A stretch of DNA of 62,781 bases from Bacteroides sp. (GTDB lineage: Bacteria > Bacteroidota > Bacteroidia > Bacteroidales > Muribaculaceae). How positions within the stretch are numbered: position 1 is the stretch's first letter; the number at the start of each line of letters is the position of its first letter. The position numbers and the translations under genes were made by a program. Shown here piece after piece: positions 5,973 to 62,781 of the stretch. Under the pieces are notes generated by a model. That model was not told where the DNA came from. It ran no database searches and saw only the letters and a list, made by a program, of their open reading frames with translations. The stretch lies in the NCBI GenBank assembly GCA_014802435.1, contig JAAVCG010000005.1, forward strand, positions 407,342 through 470,122, written 5' to 3'.

Positions 5973-7046
5973 ATGATTGCAGGAATCATCATTCTCAGCC
6001 TCCTGCTCCTGGGGGCTATTATATATATAATGCGTCTGACGGCCGAAAAAGCGTCGCTTCAGGCGCGCATAGAATCCTCAGAACAGAGCGAGGAGAAATT
6101 TCAGTCCATAGCGGGCGAGATAATGAACCGCCAGCGCGCCGACCTGCGTTCAGAAACGTCGGCCCAGATGCAGATGCTTCTCGAGCCGCTTCGGCGCGAA
6201 ATGGACACGTTCAGCCGCACCGTGTCAGAAAAATATTCCCGCGAAGCCTCCGAGCGCTTTGCCCTGCGCGAAAAAGTTGATGAACTGCGCGAACTCAACA
6301 TGGCCATCGGTCAGGAGACGCGGCGCCTCTATAACGCCCTGCGCGGCAACAATAAGGAGCAGGGAAAATGGGGCGAGCTCGTCTTGCAAACCATCCTGGA
6401 GAATGCCGGACTGACTGAGGGGCGAGAGTTCGTCACTCAGCAAGTTGCGGGGGATTTGCGCCCCGACGTGGTTGTTAATTTTCCCGGGGCGGGATGTGTC
6501 GTCATCGACTCCAAGACTTCGATGACCTCTTATATGGCTTACTGTGATGCGGAAACCGAGGAGCAGCGCCAGATTGCCGCCAAGGGACACGTAGCCTCCG
6601 TTCGCCGACACATTGATGAGCTTGCGCGCAAGAATTATCAGGCCATTACGGGGCGTGACAAGCGCCTGGAGTTCGTCATGATGTTTATGCCGAATGAGGG
6701 AGCATATCTGGCAGCCATGCAATTTGAACCGGGGCTCTGGGAGGAGGCTTATCGCAAGCAGGTAATCATCATTTCGCCGACTCATCTGCTCTCCGTGTTG
6801 CGCCTGGTTCAGCAGATGTGGCGCCACGATGCACAAAACAAGAATGCCCTCGCCATAGCCGAAGAGGCCGGAAAGATGTATGATAAGTTCATCGGCTTCG
6901 TGGATAATCTGTCTGATGTTGAAAAGAAACTTGCTCAGGCCTCTGAAGCCCTGAGTCGGGCACAGCGCCAACTTGACTCCGGCCCGGGCAATCTTGCCTC
7001 AAAGGCCCTCAAACTCAAAGAAATGGGCGCCAAGACGAGCAAATGA
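5973..7046 (+). CDS. rmuC: DNA recombination protein RmuC homologue
   Basis: 357 residues. One N-terminal transmembrane helix (residues ~2-22) is followed by a long coiled coil (to about residue 105) and then the RmuC nuclease-like domain, with KWGELVLQTILENAGL, the PD-(D/E)xK-like strand RPDVVVNFPGAGCVVIDSKTS and FMPNEGAYLAA. RmuC limits rearrangements at short inverted repeats in E. coli; the family is predicted to be a nuclease. The gene lies 4 bp behind the TonB receptor, and a composite tandem-repeat array begins 5 bp after its stop codon. Confidence 0.92.
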   Translation: MIAGIIILSLLLLGAIIYIMRLTAEKASLQARIESSEQSEEKFQSIAGEIMNRQRADLRSETSAQMQMLLEPLRREMDTFSRTVSEKYSREASERFALREKVDELRELNMAIGQETRRLYNALRGNNKEQGKWGELVLQTILENAGLTEGREFVTQQVAGDLRPDVVVNFPGAGCVVIDSKTSMTSYMAYCDAETEEQRQIAAKGHVASVRRHIDELARKNYQAITGRDKRLEFVMMFMPNEGAYLAAMQFEPGLWEEAYRKQVIIISPTHLLSVLRLVQQMWRHDAQNKNALAIAEEAGKMYDKFIGFVDNLSDVEKKLAQASEALSRAQRQLDSGPGNLASKALKLKEMGAKTSK

Positions 7047-7050
7047 TGGG

Positions 7051-7205
7051 AAAATACAAAATACTAAATACAAAATACAGAATACAAAATACAAAATACA
7101 AAGTACAAAGTACAAAGTAAAAAATACAAAATTATAAGATTTATAAGATTTATAATCAGCACTAAACACTAAACACTAAACCATAAACCATAAACTTTAA
7201 ACAGA
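7051..7205. repeat. Composite tandem array 1: 7-bp, 9-bp, 7-bp blocks
   Basis: Block A, 7051-7134: twelve in-phase 7-mers of AAAATAC and variants (TAAATAC, AAAGTAC). Block B, 7132-7158: three 9-mers of TTATAAGAT type. Block C, 7164-7205: six 7-mers AAACACT, AAACCAT, AAACTTT. It fills most of the gap between rmuC and the DUF6249 gene. The same block order occurs at 58806-59010, and blocks B and C at 62678-62781. Confidence 0.85.
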
Positions 7206-7272
7206 AATGTTACCTTTCGGGGAGCCGGGGTGTCTTATTTGTGAAGTTTAACCATTAATCATCTTTTTAATT

Positions 7273-41141: not shown

Positions 41142-41267
41142 GGTTGAAGGTTGAAGGATTAAGGTTGAAAGTTTTAGGTTGAAGGTTGAAGGATTAAGGT
41201 TGAAAGCTTAAGGTTGAAAGCTTAAGGTTGAAAGCTTAAGGTTGAAGGCTTAAAGTTGAAAGTTGAA
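41142..41267. repeat. Tandem array 2a: eighteen 7-mers GGTTGAA/AGCTTAA
   Basis: Eighteen consecutive in-phase heptamers, mainly GGTTGAA alternating with AGCTTAA or GGATTAA, so that the middle reads as a 14-bp repeat. It is followed by AT-rich TTAATGT-type units running into the four-helix-bundle gene. Confidence 0.88.
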
Positions 41268-41316
41268 TATATAATGGATATTTAATGTATAATGTTTAAT
41301 GATGTTGAATGATATG

Positions 41317-41697
41317 ATGCAGAATTTTGAAAAGCTTGAAGTTTGGCAACAAGCTCGAATTCTTGTTAATGATATATATGCGATTACTCGCGAGTTTCCT
41401 GAAGAGGAACGTTATGGACTTACGCCCCAGTTGCGACGTGCCGCTATTTCTATTAGCTCAAATATTGCAGAAGGAGCAGGAAGAGTCTCCCCTAAAGACC
41501 AAAAACACTTTTTCACAATGGCATTTGGATCTATATATGAGGTTCTCAGTCAGATAATTCTATCATTTGATTTAGGTTTTATTAATGAAGATATTCTTCA
41601 AAAAATTCGAACCCAAATTAAAACAATCAGCGGACAGCTTGCCTGCCTAAGCTCATATATTGACAAAAAAATAAATAACTCAACCCCCAAACCTTAA
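41317..41697 (+). CDS. Four-helix-bundle protein (S23/23S rRNA IVP, Avd-like)
   Basis: 126 residues from the ATG at 41317; ATGs at 41299, 41302 and 41314 are in frame. Family motifs: FEKLEVWQQARILVNDIY, FPEEERYGLTPQLRRAAISI, SSNIAEGAGRVSPKDQ and a final helix pair. Members occur as 23S rRNA intervening-sequence proteins and are related to Avd, the accessory protein of diversity-generating retroelements; most have no known role. The gene is flanked by repeat blocks: 7-mers upstream and AAACCNT 7-mers downstream, and its last codons (TPKP) are already repeat-like. No reverse transcriptase is present in the window. Confidence 0.88.
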   Translation: MQNFEKLEVWQQARILVNDIYAITREFPEEERYGLTPQLRRAAISISSNIAEGAGRVSPKDQKHFFTMAFGSIYEVLSQIILSFDLGFINEDILQKIRTQIKTISGQLACLSSYIDKKINNSTPKP

Positions 41698-41702
41698 CCA
41701 TT

Positions 41703-41787
41703 AAACCAACTTTAAACTTTAAACCCTAAACTTTAAACCTTAAACCTTAAACCAACCTTAAACCTTAAACCTTAAACCTTAAACCCA
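41703..41787. repeat. Tandem array 2b: AAACCTT-type 7-mers between the four-helix-bundle gene and priA
   Basis: AAAC recurs every 7 bp (AAACTTT, AAACCCT, AAACCTT), interrupted by two 11-bp units beginning AAACCAAC. The array ends about 10 bp before the priA ATG. Confidence 0.85.
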
Positions 41788-41796
41788 AAGAAGAAT

Positions 41797-44268
41797 ATGG
41801 AATTTGCTGAAGTAATTGTCCCGCTGCCGCTTAATGCGGTGTTTACCTATGCTGTACCCGAATCGTTGAGGGGGAAAATCAGCGTCGGCAGCCGGGTCCT
41901 TGTGCCTTTTGGACCTCGCAAATTCTATACCGGCATTGTGGAGGCCCTGACCCCTATCCCTCCTAAAGGGTTTGAAGTAAAGGAGATTATGCGACTGATT
42001 GACAAGGCCGATGACCCGATTTTATGCAATCCGCAGCTGAAGTTTTGGCGTTGGATGGCTGATTATTATCTTTGTTCCATCGGCGAAGTGATGCGTGCCG
42101 CGCTCCCCTCCGCGCTCAAGCTTGAAAGTGAAACTTTCATTGAGCCAACGGCCGATGCTGACCGTGAAAACCTCGTCGGCCTCACTGATGAAGAGGCCCT
42201 GATGCTGGCCACTCTCTGCAATGAAGGGCGCATATCTCTGGGCGACCTTTCCAAGAAAACGGGACTGACGGCGGCGCCTGACCGCGTTGTCGGCGCGCTG
42301 ATTTCCAAGGGGCTGGCGATGATCAGCGAGAAAGTAATTGAAAAATATCGCTCGCAAAAACACACCCTGATTTCCCTGCCTCCGGAGGCCGATACTCAGG
42401 GTTGGCGGACTTCAGCGTTTGCAACCATCGGGCGCGCCGCCAAACAGGAAAAGCTGCTGCTGACAATGCTGCAATTCCATTCCGGCGGTGAACGCAGCGT
42501 TGAAAAATCGCGCCTGTTGGAGCGCGCAGCCGTTACTCCGGCAATTCTGAAAACCCTTATTGACAAGGGTTTACTCCTTTCTGAAACGAAAATAGTCAAT
42601 CGCTTTGCGGCCCGCGAAGGTGCCGAAACGGCCCCCCTCCCCACTCTCAGCCCCGCGCAAACCGGGGCGCGAAACCGCCTGCTTGACCTTTGGGAGCAGG
42701 AGGGAAAGACGGTCAACCTTCTTCGCGGCGTAACGTCGAGCGGCAAGACTGAAATTTATATCCATCTGATTGACCGAGTGTTACGCGACGGCCGACAGGT
42801 GCTTTTCCTTGTTCCGGAAATTGCCTTGACCACTCAGCTCACTGAGCGTCTGCAGCGCGTATTCGGCTCTAAAGTGCTGGTCTATCACAGCAAATTTACT
42901 GATAATGAGCGCGTTGACATCTGGACCCGGCTGCTTCATAGCCGCGAGCCAATGGTGATTGTCGGCGCCCGCTCGTCGGTCTTCCTCCCGTTTCGCCGAC
43001 TGGGACTCATCATCATTGATGAAGAACACGAGCCGAGCTTCAAGCAATATGACCCGGCTCCGCGCTATAATGCGCGCGATTCGGCCATAGTATTGGCCGG
43101 AATGCATGGCGCGAAAGTGCTCTTAGGGAGCGCCTCGCCTGCCGTGGAGACCTATTATAAGGCACAAAGCGGACGCTACGGACTGGCCGAGCTGACTGAG
43201 CGTTACGGCGGTGTGGCCCTTCCGGAAATCAAGGTGATTGACATGAAAAAGGAATGGAAAAAGTTCCGTACAAACCGCCCCCTGTCAGAGGAAATGCACT
43301 CAAAGGTGAATTCAACTCTGGCTGAAGGCAACCAGGCGATAATTTTCCATAACCGGCGCGGATTTGCCCCGATGGCGAGATGCAAGGCGTGTGCCCACGT
43401 CCCGAAGTGTGAGTACTGCGACGTCTCGCTGACTTATCATCGCCTCGAAAACCGCCTCATTTGTCATTACTGCGGTGCGCAATATCCGCTCCCTACCCTC
43501 TGCCCCGTCTGCGGCGAGCCGGCAATTGAAATTATAGGCTATGGCACTGAGCGCATTGAAGACGAAGTTGCCAAGGAATTTCCCGAGGCCAAAATCCTGC
43601 GCATGGACCTGGACACGACCCGCAATAAGGATGGCTATCAGGAAATTATCAATGCCTTTTCAGCTCATAAGGCCGACATTCTCGTAGGCACTCAGATGGT
43701 CACCAAGGGCCTGGATTTTTCCGATGTGAGCATCGTCGGGGTGCTTAATGCTGACATGATTATCAATCAGCCGGACTTCCGCTCGGCCGAGCGCGCCTTT
43801 AACATGCTCATTCAAGTTGCCGGGCGTGCGGGCCGACGCGAAAAGACGGGAGAAGTGATGGTTCAGACCTCCCAGCCGGAGCATCCGGTAATCACGTCGC
43901 TCCTACGCCATGATTATGAAGGATTCTATGACCGCGAACTGGAAGAGCGCAAAAAGTTTGCTTATCCGCCCTTCTCGCGCATGATATTCATTTATCTGAA
44001 ACACAGGGAGGAAAGCGTCGTAGAGCTGATGGCGCAACGCTATGGGGCGGAACTGCGCGCACTGCTTGGCGCGCGGGTCCACGGGCCGGAGAAACCGGAA
44101 GTGGCCAGGGTGCAGTCGCTCTATATTCGCCGATTCATGCTCAAAATCGAGCCAGAAGCCTCAACCTCAAAGGTTCGGACCCTCCTGCGCGCCACTTACA
44201 ATCAACTCCTTGAGGCCAATCCTGACCTCAAGGGAGTGCAGATTCATTATGACGTTGACCCGGCTTAA
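41797..44268 (+). CDS. priA: Primosomal replication restart helicase PriA
   Basis: 823 residues. The N-terminal 3'-DNA-end-binding domain is followed by a winged helix and the helicase core: Walker A GVTSSGKTEIY (Lys317), DEEH box IIDEEHEPSFKQYDP, motif VLVGTQMVTKGLDFSDVSIV and VAGRAGRREK. Zinc cysteines are embedded (CKACAHVPKCEYCDVSL; HYCGAQYPLPTLCPVCG). It reloads DnaB at stalled forks. The repeat array fills the space upstream and no promoter motif is visible. The 3' end overlaps the convergent mutS2 stop by 4 bp. Confidence 0.97.
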   Translation: MEFAEVIVPLPLNAVFTYAVPESLRGKISVGSRVLVPFGPRKFYTGIVEALTPIPPKGFEVKEIMRLIDKADDPILCNPQLKFWRWMADYYLCSIGEVMRAALPSALKLESETFIEPTADADRENLVGLTDEEALMLATLCNEGRISLGDLSKKTGLTAAPDRVVGALISKGLAMISEKVIEKYRSQKHTLISLPPEADTQGWRTSAFATIGRAAKQEKLLLTMLQFHSGGERSVEKSRLLERAAVTPAILKTLIDKGLLLSETKIVNRFAAREGAETAPLPTLSPAQTGARNRLLDLWEQEGKTVNLLRGVTSSGKTEIYIHLIDRVLRDGRQVLFLVPEIALTTQLTERLQRVFGSKVLVYHSKFTDNERVDIWTRLLHSREPMVIVGARSSVFLPFRRLGLIIIDEEHEPSFKQYDPAPRYNARDSAIVLAGMHGAKVLLGSASPAVETYYKAQSGRYGLAELTERYGGVALPEIKVIDMKKEWKKFRTNRPLSEEMHSKVNSTLAEGNQAIIFHNRRGFAPMARCKACAHVPKCEYCDVSLTYHRLENRLICHYCGAQYPLPTLCPVCGEPAIEIIGYGTERIEDEVAKEFPEAKILRMDLDTTRNKDGYQEIINAFSAHKADILVGTQMVTKGLDFSDVSIVGVLNADMIINQPDFRSAERAFNMLIQVAGRAGRREKTGEVMVQTSQPEHPVITSLLRHDYEGFYDRELEERKKFAYPPFSRMIFIYLKHREESVVELMAQRYGAELRALLGARVHGPEKPEVARVQSLYIRRFMLKIEPEASTSKVRTLLRATYNQLLEANPDLKGVQIHYDVDPA

Positions 44269-57936: not shown

Positions 57937-58818
57937 ATGAAAAAATTATTCCTCCTGGCCTCTTTGGCTCTCGCTGCTTTCTCAGCTAATGCCCAGCTTC
58001 TCTGGAAAGTTTCCGGCAATAACGCCGCCGGCGATTCTTACATTTTCGGCACTCACCATGTCGCTCCCCTCGCTATGATTGACAGCATAAAGGGAACCAT
58101 GCCCGCCCTTGAGAGCGCCGACCTGATGATGGGCGAAATCGACATGATTTCAAGTCCCGAAAACATGATGCAAATCTCTATGGCCTATGCAATGGCGCCT
58201 TCTGACTCCACTCTGACCAAGGTTTTCACCCCCGAAGAGATTAACGAAATCAACGCCGTGCTCTCTAAATATTCCGGCGGGCAGCTCTCTTGCGCCCTGC
58301 TTGATGCGCTGAAGCCCGCAATGGTTAGCACCCAGCTGGCTATGTTGCAGACCATGACCTCTTTCCCCGGATATAACCCCGCCGAGCAGCTTGACCAGAC
58401 CCTCCAGCAGGTGGCCGCCGCCAACGGTAAGAAGGTTGAAGGTCTGGAAACCATTGAGTCGCAATTTCAGCTCCTGATGGGCAATCCTATCAGCGAGCAG
58501 GCTAAAGACCTCCTGGAGGCCGTCAGAAATGAAGAAAAATCAGTCGTCAAGGCTCAGCAGCTCGCCGCCGCCTACATGGCCGAAGACCTCCCCGCCATTG
58601 AAGAATTAATCCTCAATGACCCTGACTCAGAGCCGGAAGCCATCGACCGACTGATTACTAACCGCAACGGCTCATGGGTTGAAATCCTCAAGACCAAGCT
58701 CCCTCAGCAATCAATCTTCATTGCCGTCGGCGCCGGGCACTTAATCGGCGAAAAAGGCCTCATCAACCAACTCCGCCAAGCCGGCTACACCCTCACCCCG
58801 GTCTCAAATGAAAAATGA
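57937..58818 (+). CDS. TraB/GumN family protein, exported
   Basis: 293 residues with a signal peptide (MKKLFLLASLALAAFSANA). TraB/GumN features: LLWKVSGNNAAGDSYIFGTHH near the N-terminus, the second motif KKVEGLETIESQFQLL, and FIAVGAGHLIGEKGLINQLRQAGY at the C-terminus. The paired GTHH and GAGH motifs suggest metal binding, as in Tiki-like metalloproteases; activity in bacteria is largely untested. The stop codon lies within the first units of a tandem array (AAATGAA), so the terminal residues NEK are encoded by repeat DNA. Confidence 0.9.
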   Translation: MKKLFLLASLALAAFSANAQLLWKVSGNNAAGDSYIFGTHHVAPLAMIDSIKGTMPALESADLMMGEIDMISSPENMMQISMAYAMAPSDSTLTKVFTPEEINEINAVLSKYSGGQLSCALLDALKPAMVSTQLAMLQTMTSFPGYNPAEQLDQTLQQVAAANGKKVEGLETIESQFQLLMGNPISEQAKDLLEAVRNEEKSVVKAQQLAAAYMAEDLPAIEELILNDPDSEPEAIDRLITNRNGSWVEILKTKLPQQSIFIAVGAGHLIGEKGLINQLRQAGYTLTPVSNEK

Positions 58819-59010
58819 AAAGTGAAAAGTGAAAAATAAGTTTTATAAGACTTATAAAATTTATAAAACTCATAAAACTCATAAAACTTAATTACCCGCC
58901 AAACCACTAAACACTAAACACTAAACCCTAAACCACAAACCATAAACCATAAACCATAAACCATAAACCATAAACCATAAACCATAAACCATAAACCATA
59001 AACCATAAAC
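58806..59010. repeat. Composite tandem array 3: 7-bp, 9-bp, 7-bp blocks
   Basis: Block A, 58806-58840: five 7-mers AAATGAA/AAGTGAA, beginning inside the TraB/GumN coding sequence. Block B, 58843-58887: five 9-mers (TTATAAGAC, TTATAAAAT, TCATAAAAC). Block C, 58909-59010: fifteen AAAC-starting 7-mers, ten of them perfect AAACCAT at 58937-59006. The block order equals that at 7051. Confidence 0.9.
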
Positions 59011-59015
59011 TCCCC

Positions 59016-59831
59016 TTGGAAATTAAACTCGAAAACTTAAACTTCCGCTATTCCCTGAAGAGCCCCTTGGCCCTTCAAGGGATAAGCGCGACCATTCGCC
59101 CCGGCATACACCTGCTTTTGGGCGAAAACGGCGCCGGCAAAACAACTCTCCTCCGCCTGATTGCCGGCCTTTTGAAGCCCACCGAAGGACAATGTCTGAT
59201 TGACGGTGCTAAAGCATATGACCTGCTCCCGTCAATCCTCTCAAAACTGTTTCTCTGTGGTGTCAACGTTGATTTCCCCATGAAATCTATTGCCGAGATG
59301 GTCAAATATCATGCCGTGTTCTATCCAGACTTCTCCAATGAGATGCTCCTCCGTAATCTCTCCGCCTTTGGAATCGAGGCCTCTACCCCACTCTCTGACC
59401 TCTCTACGGGCAACGCGCAAAAAGCCAAACTGGCCTATGCGCTGTCGCTCCGAACCCCGATTCTGCTCCTTGACGAGCCTACCAACGGAGTCGACATTGA
59501 ATCCAAAAAGCTGCTCCAGCAAATGATTGCCGAGTCCATCTCGCCGGAGCAAACCGTTATTATCTCAACTCACTCCGTCGCTGACCTGGAAAACTTCTAT
59601 GATGCCGTCATCGACCTCCATCAAGGCTCGCTCAACTATGCGCTGACAGTTGACCAAATCCTTGACCGCCTGAGCTTTGGCTCCGGACCGGAAGTGCCTC
59701 CCGGCGCTTTATATTCGGAGCCCTGGATTGGGAGCTTTCGCTTTGTTTTGGTGAAAGCTGATAATAAACTGACTGATATTGACTATGAGCTGCTTTATAT
59801 GGCCGCCCGCAAAACAAAGTTGCCCTTATGA
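59016..59831 (+). CDS. ABC transporter ATP-binding protein of a GntR-linked operon
   Basis: 271 residues from a TTG at 59016; no in-frame ATG exists between the stop at 58992 and the conserved N-terminus (LENLNFRYSLKSPLALQGI). Walker A GENGAGKTTL, signature LSTGNAQKAKL, Walker B ILLLDEPTNGVDI and switch His IISTHSVAD are present, so it should be functional. The repeat array ends 5 bp before the TTG, leaving no room for a normal leader. It overlaps the permease gene by 4 bp. With the GntR gene it forms a YtrABC-like operon that may respond to cell-wall stress. Confidence 0.88.
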   Translation: MEIKLENLNFRYSLKSPLALQGISATIRPGIHLLLGENGAGKTTLLRLIAGLLKPTEGQCLIDGAKAYDLLPSILSKLFLCGVNVDFPMKSIAEMVKYHAVFYPDFSNEMLLRNLSAFGIEASTPLSDLSTGNAQKAKLAYALSLRTPILLLDEPTNGVDIESKKLLQQMIAESISPEQTVIISTHSVADLENFYDAVIDLHQGSLNYALTVDQILDRLSFGSGPEVPPGALYSEPWIGSFRFVLVKADNKLTDIDYELLYMAARKTKLPL

Positions 59832-60565: not shown

Positions 60566-60941
60566 TAACAAGCAAACAATCTATCAGCAGATAACCGACT
60601 ACTGCCTGCGCCAGATCAGTGCCGGACTTTGGATTCCGGGCGAACGAATTCCCTCTACCCGAGAGCTTTCGCTTCGCCTCGGAGTCAATTCCCGCACTAT
60701 TATCCGCGCTTATGAAGAGCTTGAACAGATGGGAATAATTTACACTCAGCGTGGGTTTGGCAGCTTCACCCATGCCGACGTGATTTCCCGCCTGGCGCTC
60801 ATTCGCCGCGAGGAGTTTGCCGCTACCGGCCTCCGGGAGTTCATCCGTATGGCCCGGGAAGCAGGATTCAAGCTCAATGAGGTTATCGCCGAGATTGAAA
60901 AACAATGGAATAATGGCTCCGATATCATTTCTTCAAATTGA
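60555..60941 (+). CDS. GntR-family (YtrA subfamily) transcriptional regulator
   Basis: 128 residues. The winged HTH is complete: IYQQITDYCLRQISAGLWIP, STRELSLRLGVNSRTIIRAY, EELEQMGIIYTQRGFGSFT. The short C-terminal part (about 50 residues of helices) instead of a large effector domain is typical of the YtrA subfamily, which usually controls adjacent ABC transporters. Its place as third gene, after the transporter, differs from the usual first position. It overlaps the next gene by 29 bp. Confidence 0.9.
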   Translation: MEYNNKQTIYQQITDYCLRQISAGLWIPGERIPSTRELSLRLGVNSRTIIRAYEELEQMGIIYTQRGFGSFTHADVISRLALIRREEFAATGLREFIRMAREAGFKLNEVIAEIEKQWNNGSDIISSN

Positions 60942-62664
60942 CAAACTAACTAAAAGTTATGGCGACCGCCTCCTTTTTGGCGACGTCACTTTCGGCATAA
61001 ACCAAGGCGATAAAATCGGCCTCATCGCTAAAAACGGAACCGGAAAGAGCACCATGCTCCGCATAATTGCCGGACTGGAAAGCCCCGATAGCGGCAACGT
61101 CATTGCCCGTAGCGGCCTGAAAATCGCCTTTGTAGAGCAGAAGCCGGACCTCGGCGGAGAGGGAGCCACTCCCCTCTCCGCCTGCTCCGAGTTTGACCCC
61201 GCGACGGCTGAACGTATGTTGACCCAATTGGGCATTACGGATGTCAATCATCCCGTCGACAAGATGTCCGGCGGACAGCAAAAGCGCATAGCCATTGCCC
61301 GGGCGCTCCTTGCCGAGCCTGATTTATTGATTCTTGACGAGCCTACAAACCATCTTGACATCGCCGCCATTGAATGGCTTGAAAAGCGCCTGGCTCATGC
61401 CAATATGACCCTGCTGCTCGTTACTCACGACCGCTATTTCCTTGACCGCATCTGCAACAAAATCATTGAAATAGACCTCAGCCAAATCTTCACTTATCAA
61501 GGAAACTATAATGAATATCTCCGCCGACGCCAAGAGCGCATCGATGCCCTGACCGGCGAACTCGCAAAGGTGCGTAACACTCTGCGCCGTGAGCAGGAAT
61601 GGATGAGCCGTCAACCTCAGGCGCGAGCCGGAAAAGCCAAATTCCGAATCGATAATTTCCATGAACTCAAACGCCGCTCCCAACTATCGGCAACGGACTC
61701 TACGGCCAATGTTCAACTTGACGTCAAAGCCTCCCGAATCGGCTCTAAAATCTTTGAGGCCGAAGGAGTCTCCAAGCGCTTCGGCGACACGATTATCCTT
61801 GATGACTTCACTTACACCTTCGCCCGCATGGACAAGGTAGGCATCGTCGGCCCTAACGGCATCGGTAAATCCACTTTCATCAAGATGCTCCAAGGAATAA
61901 TTCAGCCTGATTCCGGCCGGTTTGACGTCGGCGAGACTGTCCGTTTCGGCTACTACAGCCAGGACGGACTCCATCTTCCCCCCGAAAAGAAAGTCATTGA
62001 CGCCATTACTGACCTGGCGGAAGACATTGTCCTGGCCGGAGGCGAGCGACATTCACCAATGCAATTCCTCCAGCGATTCCTCTTCTCGCCCAAGGACCAG
62101 CAAAAATATATCTCCACTCTCTCCGGCGGCGAAAAGGCCCGACTGCATTTGGCCACGGTGCTGATGCAATCCCCTAACTTCCTGATTCTTGACGAGCCGA
62201 CGAACGACCTTGATATTCTCACCTTAGGGATTCTTGAAGAATACCTCGCCGAATTTAAAGGCTGCCTCATCGTAGTGAGCCACGACCGTTATTTCCTTGA
62301 CAACATCGTTGACCATCTCTTTGTCTTCACCGGCAACGGAACAATCAAAGACTTCCCCGGAAATTACACTGATTATCGACGCTTCCTCGCCGAAACGGCT
62401 GCCGCTGCCCCTAAAGAAGAAAAAGCCAAGAAACCCGCTCGCGAAAGCGCCCCGAAACCGCGCAAGCTAACCTTCAAGGAACGCAAACGCATGGAGGAAC
62501 TCGAGCAAATAATCGAACGTCTAACCAACGAAAAAGCAACCCTTGAAGAGACTTTCACTTCCGGCACCCCTGACCAAATAAACGCCGCCTCCATCCGCTA
62601 CGAAGCCCTCAAATCCGAGCTCGACGACGCCGAACTCGAATGGCTAACCCTCTCCGAAATCTAA
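60913..62664 (+). CDS. ABC-F family ATPase (Uup-like)
   Basis: 583 residues from the ATG at 60913, where the ABC fold begins (MAPISFLQIDKLTKSYG). Two ABC cassettes: Walker A AKNGTGKSTML and GPNGIGKSTFI, signatures MSGGQQKRIAIARAL and LSGGEKARLHLATVL, joined by the ABC-F linker (QPQARAGKAKFRIDNFHELK). A C-terminal coiled coil (ERKRMEELEQIIERLTNEKA) resembles Uup. ABC-F proteins act on ribosomes, not in transport. The start lies within the GntR gene, and a repeat array follows the stop. Confidence 0.93.
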   Translation: MAPISFLQIDKLTKSYGDRLLFGDVTFGINQGDKIGLIAKNGTGKSTMLRIIAGLESPDSGNVIARSGLKIAFVEQKPDLGGEGATPLSACSEFDPATAERMLTQLGITDVNHPVDKMSGGQQKRIAIARALLAEPDLLILDEPTNHLDIAAIEWLEKRLAHANMTLLLVTHDRYFLDRICNKIIEIDLSQIFTYQGNYNEYLRRRQERIDALTGELAKVRNTLRREQEWMSRQPQARAGKAKFRIDNFHELKRRSQLSATDSTANVQLDVKASRIGSKIFEAEGVSKRFGDTIILDDFTYTFARMDKVGIVGPNGIGKSTFIKMLQGIIQPDSGRFDVGETVRFGYYSQDGLHLPPEKKVIDAITDLAEDIVLAGGERHSPMQFLQRFLFSPKDQQKYISTLSGGEKARLHLATVLMQSPNFLILDEPTNDLDILTLGILEEYLAEFKGCLIVVSHDRYFLDNIVDHLFVFTGNGTIKDFPGNYTDYRRFLAETAAAAPKEEKAKKPARESAPKPRKLTFKERKRMEELEQIIERLTNEKATLEETFTSGTPDQINAASIRYEALKSELDDAELEWLTLSEI

Positions 62665-62677
62665 CCAAGCGCAAAAC

Positions 62678-62781
62678 TCATAATTTTTATAAATCTTATA
62701 AATCTTATAAGATATAATACCCCCCATAAACCATAAACCATAAACTTTAAACCTTAAACCTTAAACCTTAAACCTTAAACC
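62678..62781. repeat. Composite tandem array 4 (continues past the window)
   Basis: Block B, 62678-62718: about four 9-mers (TTATAAATC, TTATAAGAT). Block C, 62724-62781: three CCATAAA, one CTTTAAA, four CCTTAAA and a cut unit at the window edge. No A-type block is visible between the ABC-F stop and block B. Confidence 0.88.

Follow-up and report, generated by a model that had tools for sequence, protein, structure and literature searches.

Stacked tandem-repeat blocks at intergenic junctions of a Bacteroides genome resemble the arrays that flank S23/IVP-family genes

Three composite arrays in the window

A tandem repeat whose period changes from 7 to 9 and back to 7 bp, in the same order at separate intergenic sites, raises the question of what makes such arrays and what fixes their order. 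We addressed this in 62,781 nucleotides of a Bacteroides sp. draft genome of the family Muribaculaceae (assembly GCA_014802435.1, contig JAAVCG010000005.1, positions 407,342 to 470,122; hereafter the window), in which the original prediction had described three composite arrays. Tandem Repeats Finder recovered the three arrays and their periods as described; for block B at the second and third sites its bounds, 58843-58890 and 62687-62710, start slightly inside those given below. At the first site, block A (7051-7132, plus strand, period 7, AAAATAC) starts 4 nt past the stop codon of an RmuC-family gene (5973-7046) and is followed by block B (7132-7155, period 9, TTATAAGAT, with a palindromic TTATAA core) and block C (7160-7203, plus strand, period 7, CACTAAA, of the AAACNNT type); 68 nt separate the end of block C from the called start. 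The sister genome G110 (L163) apparently preserves the sequence just 3' of this block C (7206-7272). At the second site, the position of A is taken by block E (58806-58837, plus strand, period 7, AAATGAA), which overlaps the stop codon of a TraB/GumN-family gene (57937-58818). Block B (58836-58890, period 9, TTATAAAAC) and block C (58901-59010, plus strand, period 7, AAACCAT) follow, the latter ending 3 to 5 nt 5' of the called TTG start of an ABC transporter ATPase gene (59016-59831). At the third site, block B (62678-62710, period 9) lies 13 nt past the stop codon of a gene that encodes ABC transporter domains (60817-62664), and block C (62727-62781, plus strand, period 7) runs on past the window edge (L054). 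Here the unit of block B reads TTATAAATC, which is the 7132 unit in reverse complement. Because TTATAA is palindromic, the strand of block B is undefined, and the claim that all blocks share the orientation of the neighboring genes is valid at these sites for A and C only.

None of the three composites contains an S23/IVP gene, and an Rfam search of the window returned zero families at the gathering score. The RNA of 7044-7272 is predicted to fold no more stably than its shuffles (z = -0.42). That of 58819-59015 beats its shuffles (z = -4.47), chiefly in E and B, with the centroid of the region unpaired. The proposed intergenic placement and likeness to heptamer short tandem repeats (STRRs) held up for blocks A, E, and C, which are tandem 7-nt intergenic units; block B, with its 9-nt unit, is not a heptamer repeat. 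The TAACTGA unit of described heptamers is absent from A, E, and C (units AAAATAC, AAATGAA, and AAACNNT).

Block order and abundance in the host genome

In the 2.48-Mb host draft (45 contigs), the C pattern TAAACNNTAAACNNTAAAC had 231 matches and its reversed control 0, while the B pattern TTATAANNYTTATAANNYTTATAA had 79 matches genome-wide and its control 0, many places being scored on both strands owing to the palindromic core. This abundance is far above chance. The array counts that follow cover ~0.36 Mb of the 2.48 Mb, with 100 of the 231 C matches listed, plus further array ends (24 and 18). This part of the genome holds 11 B-C composites, with B 5' of C in every one and A or E, where present, further 5'. 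When 33 nine-mer arrays were scanned separately, 12 had C 3' of them and none had it 5' alone. At L071, among these 12, weak C-like matches also stand 5' of the nine-mer array, and L051, which is below the threshold of the scan, shows the same 9-mer-then-C order. The recurrence of the order at separate loci was therefore borne out, and the order is not random in the part of the genome covered. It is fixed where blocks adjoin, yet the blocks also stand alone: B-only and C-only arrays are common. The 9-mer slot can be filled by other units (AATTAGTCC at L061 and ACCAGTCAG at L063). C points toward the start of the gene that follows in 9 of the 11 composites (L071 being a divergent pair), but in the other two (L053 and L061) it is opposed to the flanking genes, a second point on which the claim of shared orientation fell short. 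Inside C, a conserved order of unit variants was not found overall (AC before CA 7 times and after it 5 times); TA stood before CA 9 times and after it 0 times, as one among many pairs compared. Palindromic 7-mer or 11-mer arrays (inverted C, or an 11-mer unit termed D) that lack a gene and resemble IVP arms were seen at L046, L047, L055, L067, L190, and L197.

The strict B-C composite pattern occurs in 1 of 149 genomes of the host's family, the host itself, and was found in none of the named genomes and viral contigs searched, a set from which close relatives of the host are possibly absent; C-type arrays occur in other genomes. An assembly artifact could in principle produce such arrays in a draft genome with N inside them. 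Scattered N is indeed 4.4-fold denser in host arrays (55/6,914 bases) than elsewhere (638/355,753), suggestive of variation between strains or of ambiguity in the assembly, and the array lengths in the draft are uncertain. Similar repeats with unique flanks in other genomes, in isolates, and in plasmids recorded as complete nevertheless make an artifact hardly credible.

Orthologous junctions differ in their blocks

The RmuC junction of G110 (protein identity, 91%) carries A, then an inverted repeat (hairpin), then C; in other congeners the same downstream gene was not apparent by eye. The TraB/GumN-ABC junction of G110 (76% protein identity) has about four C units and nothing else of the composite, and three farther congeners that keep this gene pair (L174, L178, and L179) have an array-free spacer of 0 to 20 nt. 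These differing states indicate that the composite was built stepwise, so that it is probably a modular stack rather than one inserted unit. The idea of a single defined composite element was not supported by this comparison, given the A-hairpin-C and C-only states of G110 and the frequency of lone B and lone C. For the same reasons we regard the insertion of one mobile element as A-B-C as very unlikely: it would account for the fixed order, but it fits neither the partial and alternative middles at orthologous sites nor the foreign units in the 9-mer slot and the frequent lone blocks.

Blocks sit at preferred places around start and stop codons

Array positions were read against the calls of a crude, purpose-made gene caller, which misses IVP genes. 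The 34 non-palindromic C arrays comprised 18 sense and 6 antisense arrays in codirectional junctions, 6 in divergent and 2 in convergent junctions, and 2 at an end of the DNA retrieved. The C end had a start codon within 16 nt in 17 of 24 sense but 1 of 13 antisense cases, figures in which transcription and replication-strand bias are taken together. Among 320 C units, G stood at the two variable positions in 5 and N in 10 more. Block C is thus a G-poor leader ahead of start codons. Lone B arrays had a stop codon within 35 nt in 6 of 10 cases and a start codon in 1 of 10. Forward orientation just upstream of a start, as in known heptamer repeats, was found for C and not for A and B.

Outside the host, a 34-base (TAAACCA)n pattern matched 71 stretches in named genomes, whose titles were mostly from Bacteroidota and also from Gammaproteobacteria, Paenibacillus, and others. 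A start codon followed these AAACCAT arrays within 30 nt in 16 of 35 sense and 0 of 12 antisense cases, counted over loci whose array is not inside an open reading frame (ORF; 7 are). In several Bacteroidota (L091, L097, L104, L106, L128, L147, L150, and L156), the AAACCAT arrays begin right after a TTTTCCA-like sequence, variants included.

These positions raise the possibility that the blocks are selected mRNA elements, with C as a translation leader or regulator-binding site and B and the hairpins as transcript-end or processing signals, and that selection alone gives both their presence and their order. The placement of C near starts in the sense orientation, in the host and in other genomes, the rarity of G at its variable positions, and the position of lone B near stops all speak for such a role, and the same proposal has been made for TAACTGA heptamers in the account of PMC4679880. 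As a complete account, however, it seems unlikely, if still worth serious attention: 6 of the 34 C arrays are antisense in codirectional junctions, orthologous junctions are often array-free, and a link to IVP genes, described below, is left unexplained.

An IVP gene between inverted C arrays

The window contains an IVP gene (41299-41697, plus strand; PF05635, 121.7 bits; TIGR02436, 110.5 bits) directly before priA (41797-44268) and between inverted arms. The 5' arm (41142-41262, minus strand) is of the C type and inverted; the 3' arm (41689-41786, plus strand; C type, AAACCTT) ends 10 nt before priA. The locus lies outside 23S rRNA. PF05635 was the sole Pfam match of the gene at E 0.001, so no Y1 tyrosine transposase lies between the arms. 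At the priA site, the host has arms and an IVP gene, G110 a short array without one, and genome G061 neither.

Block C resembles the arms of this locus (41142-41786), and counterparts of other blocks were found elsewhere. Block E resembles the AAATGAA-like arms of an IVP gene between genes read as purH and mreB; in the host these arms are degenerate, with an inverted-arm score (defined below) of 37 and no tandem array at threshold. The G110 ortholog of this IVP gene has arms of AAAATAC, the unit of block A, together with AAATGAA-like units; both arms thus differ together at one site. The likeness of E to the host arms and of A to the G110 arms was judged by eye. Block B resembles arrays at a relative of the long family introduced below (C7:8358), a gene with an in-frame stop whose open frame gives no suffix-domain match. 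Arms of the 11-mer D flank an IVP gene upstream of a gene read as polA; the names purH, mreB, and polA are readings of the sequence rather than results of a profile search. Blocks B, C, and E therefore appear to match arrays at three different IVP-family (S23/four-helix-bundle) genes of the host genome, and the unit of block A appears to flank the ortholog, in the sister species, of the gene with E-type arms. A better reading is that the blocks belong to distinct repeat families, that each family is similar to the arrays of an IVP-family gene, and that they settle at preferred places, 3' of stop codons for A/E and B and 5' of start codons for C.

Inverted arms are common at the short IVP genes studied

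Given the IVP gene between inverted C arrays before priA, we examined IVP genes at large. For loci in the host genome and its relatives, the upstream flank was scored against the reverse complement of the downstream flank, with a threshold of 28, the 95% point of 344 mismatched flank pairs (maximum, 55). The window locus (L039) scored 89, and its predicted RNA fold had a z of -5.89 (20 shuffles). Short IVP genes of both sets studied had inverted, mostly 7-mer arms at 61 of 69 loci. In the first set, the inverted score exceeded 28 at 24 of 29 loci and the direct score at 2 of 29, with 4 further loci left out as having no ORF by the method used; in the second, the inverted score exceeded 28 at 37 of 40 loci (at least 33 at 35 of 40, the set's own 95% null being 32) and the direct score at 12 of 40. 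None of 70 other short genes used as controls (64 from the host genome and 6 from relatives) scored above 28. Across IVP loci the arms are mostly tandem arrays and differ between loci. The inversion means that the transcript of a short-protein locus could fold as a stem with the gene in its loop, as in 23S rRNA intervening sequences.

Plasmids gave a similar result. In a sample of 16 of 27 records, among them cyanobacteria, Azospirillum, and Riemerella, 13 of 16 IVP loci scored above a 95% null of 33. Heptamers at the plasmid loci include AGGGAGT, AAAAGGG, and AGGGTGT, and at one locus (L258) the direct-orientation score was higher than the inverted. Some plasmid IVP genes stand between functionally linked genes: those for ribonucleotide reductase beta and alpha (L257), cas6 and cas4 (L258 and L267), and cas10 and a cmr3-family gene (L261). 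Among the long relatives, inverted arms scored no better than direct ones (8 of 18 each), partly because their units are near-palindromic.

Repeat period and unit go with the protein

The long relatives are weak PF05635 matches with a median length of 197 aa. Nine were typed: six score at or above the cut-off for NCBIfam TIGR04258 (four helix bundle suffix domain), two fall just below it, and the ninth, the interrupted host gene, gives no match in its open frame; two carry a topoisomerase-type zinc ribbon. We had considered weak matches as a negative control, a use that was rejected when they proved to be flanked by 9-mer or 8-mer arrays themselves. Counted over arrays that reach the detection threshold, the two families differ in period. 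In 146 flanks of 73 short-family loci we found 87 arrays, of period 7 (56), 14 (15), 8 (13), 11 (2), and 6 (1), with none of period 9; periods 7 and 14 thus make up 71 of 87. In 126 flanks of 63 long-family loci we found 55 arrays, of period 9 (45), 8 (9), and 10 (1), with none of period 7; three loci had been fetched twice, and without them nine-mers are 41 of 51. The 32 flanks of plasmid IVPs gave 19 arrays, of period 7 (15), 14 (3), and 15 (1). At L314 and L316, long relatives with a C-terminal topoisomerase-type zinc ribbon have 8-mer arrays. At L043 (a host locus with ACCAGTCTG arrays), L044, and L323, nine-mer arrays apparently run in frame into the gene end, encoding tails such as SDQSDQ, SYQSYQ, and FYKFYK.

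On a tree of 149 proteins (124 columns), with 105 of them labelled and 64 of its 144 inner branches open, the period labels required 11 changes, compared with a mean of 42.3 after shuffling, and 0 of 200 shuffles were as low. Unit similarity correlated with protein identity, and did so also once same-site pairs had been taken out as far as short flanks allow (r = 0.33 for 7-mers, n = 54; r = 0.38 for 9-mers, n = 32; 0 of 2,000 permutations as high). Units with TTATAA were seen at 6 of the 32 nine-mer loci, and the proteins of five of them group with one more protein in a single supported clade that spans different genomes. From these comparisons, unit length appears to go with subfamily, 7 for short TIGR02436/PF05635 proteins and 9 for most long relatives, typified by TIGR04258, and unit sequence appears to follow protein similarity even across different sites.

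These associations bear on a neutral account in which microsatellites grow by slippage in short spacers, the polymerase footprint favoring period 7, and IVP genes insert there with some taste for hairpins. An excess of heptamers and the footprint idea are on record in PMC4692102, arrays differ strongly between sister species, and N enrichment is what variable repeats should show. Slippage does not predict, however, that short and long IVPs stand beside 7-mers and 9-mers without crossing, that the unit tracks protein similarity across sites, or that the blocks match different IVP loci, and we consider it rather improbable.

A proposed role for IVP-family proteins

We propose instead, with a confidence slightly better than even, that IVP-family proteins cause their own repeats to expand and spread and that the arrays persist at mRNA junctions, where they stack into the order 7-9-7. 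Each protein would recognize its own repeats, either as an RNA hairpin or in single-stranded DNA, with a register of 7 or 9 nt. Aided by replication, recombination, or reverse transcription of the host, it would make these repeats expand and copy elsewhere, so that dispersed arrays would be gene-less copies. Judging from their position, arrays might persist at mRNA junctions where they are harmless or helpful: the place behind the stop codon would go to A/E and to B (or to an inverted hairpin of 11-mers), C would settle just ahead of the following start codon as a leader almost devoid of G, and the stacking of several families at one junction would yield the order 7-9-7. Selection on the blocks as mRNA elements may hold alongside this explanation. 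A nucleic-acid-binding role fits the solved relative 2gsc and a distant likeness to Avd proteins that stays below cut-off (PF22296 [Avd] against L040, 26.9 bits, cut-off 40; NF033474 against the window IVP, 18.3 bits, cut-off 80). We infer that the proteins make or spread the arrays from the clade-specific period and unit; what the data show is association, and the correlation of unit with protein, which is part of the pattern, would arise as well from a gene that simply travelled together with its arms.

Several facts count against the proposed role of the proteins. G110 has C arrays (28 matches) and no C-type IVP among its 3 IVP matches, in an assembly that is 88% complete. In 400 kb of genome G118, no dispersed copies of its strong IVP's unit turned up. 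That stretch has 8 arrays between genes, of which only two can be tied to relatives of its own (an 8-mer shares the unit of a long relative, and a 10-mer lies beside another), and four are 9-mers without an identified gene. The gene matching block B is interrupted, the E arms are degenerate, and for block A the matching IVP locus is in the sister species only. An IVP gene was present in the fetched DNA at only 4 of the 71 AAACCAT loci of other genomes, and the idea of IVP as a general neighbor of these arrays was rejected. Also to be counted are the 8-, 11-, and 6-mer arrays of the short family, the direct-orientation scores, the long relatives without a preference for inversion, and the unconserved variant order in C.

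More tentatively, and at somewhat less than even confidence, S23/IVP and suffix-domain proteins at large could be period-setting makers and spreaders of bacterial short tandem repeats, with a unit of its own for each clade, 7 nt for short and 9 nt for long proteins, and 8 or 10 nt in side branches. Dispersed heptamer arrays, those of cyanobacteria perhaps among them, would then in many cases be gene-less copies.

Comparison with known systems

The puzzle of heptamer repeats in cyanobacteria and other bacteria goes back decades. Heptamer repeats have been reported with no known maker, Calothrix being named in the account of PMC4692102, and for S23/IVP proteins the description in PMC4990558 gives no known function. 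The pairing of clade with repeat length and sequence links these two puzzles, makes both testable, and points tentatively to a system of genes and repeats that would underlie a class of bacterial repeats long unexplained. That heptamers occur upstream of starts was known already; the surprising part is the pairing of gene and repeat. On its own, the composite would be a variant of intergenic heptamer repeats, and the main result lies beyond it. The TAACTGA heptamers of Beggiatoaceae, Cyanobacteria, and Bacteroidetes, as described in PMC4679880, and cyanobacterial STRRs are likewise intergenic heptamer tandems, often just 5' of starts, and are patchy across some of the phyla that also carry the present arrays. 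Their units differ, and the present arrays add a 9-mer block, the fixed 7-9-7 order, and the likeness to IVP-gene arrays.

In the open-access literature searched we found no report linking IVP/S23 genes to dispersed tandem arrays or to unit length, the nearest being the heptamer repeats noted upstream of the S23 ORF of Coxiella in PMC4990558. The 23S rRNA intervening sequences that this source describes have complementary ends that enclose a loop with an S23/IVP ORF, as at the present IVP loci, and it gives S23p of Xanthomonas as a homopentamer. The present loci differ in lying at protein-gene junctions, in having tandem-array arms with a changing unit, and in the many gene-less copies of the arrays. 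The P6b loop of the Nostoc trnL intron (PMC4476775) is, as here, an RNA hairpin stem of pairing 7-nt repeats with gain and loss of units; that stem lies inside a group I intron, and the account of it in that source mentions no protein gene in the loop.

A comparable layout is that of REP/RAYT systems, in which one gene is flanked by its own inverted repeats and many dispersed copies lack the gene. The gene between the present arms, unlike that of REP/RAYT, encodes a putative four-helix-bundle protein, distantly similar to the Avd proteins of diversity-generating retroelements at the subthreshold scores given above, and no tyrosine transposase.
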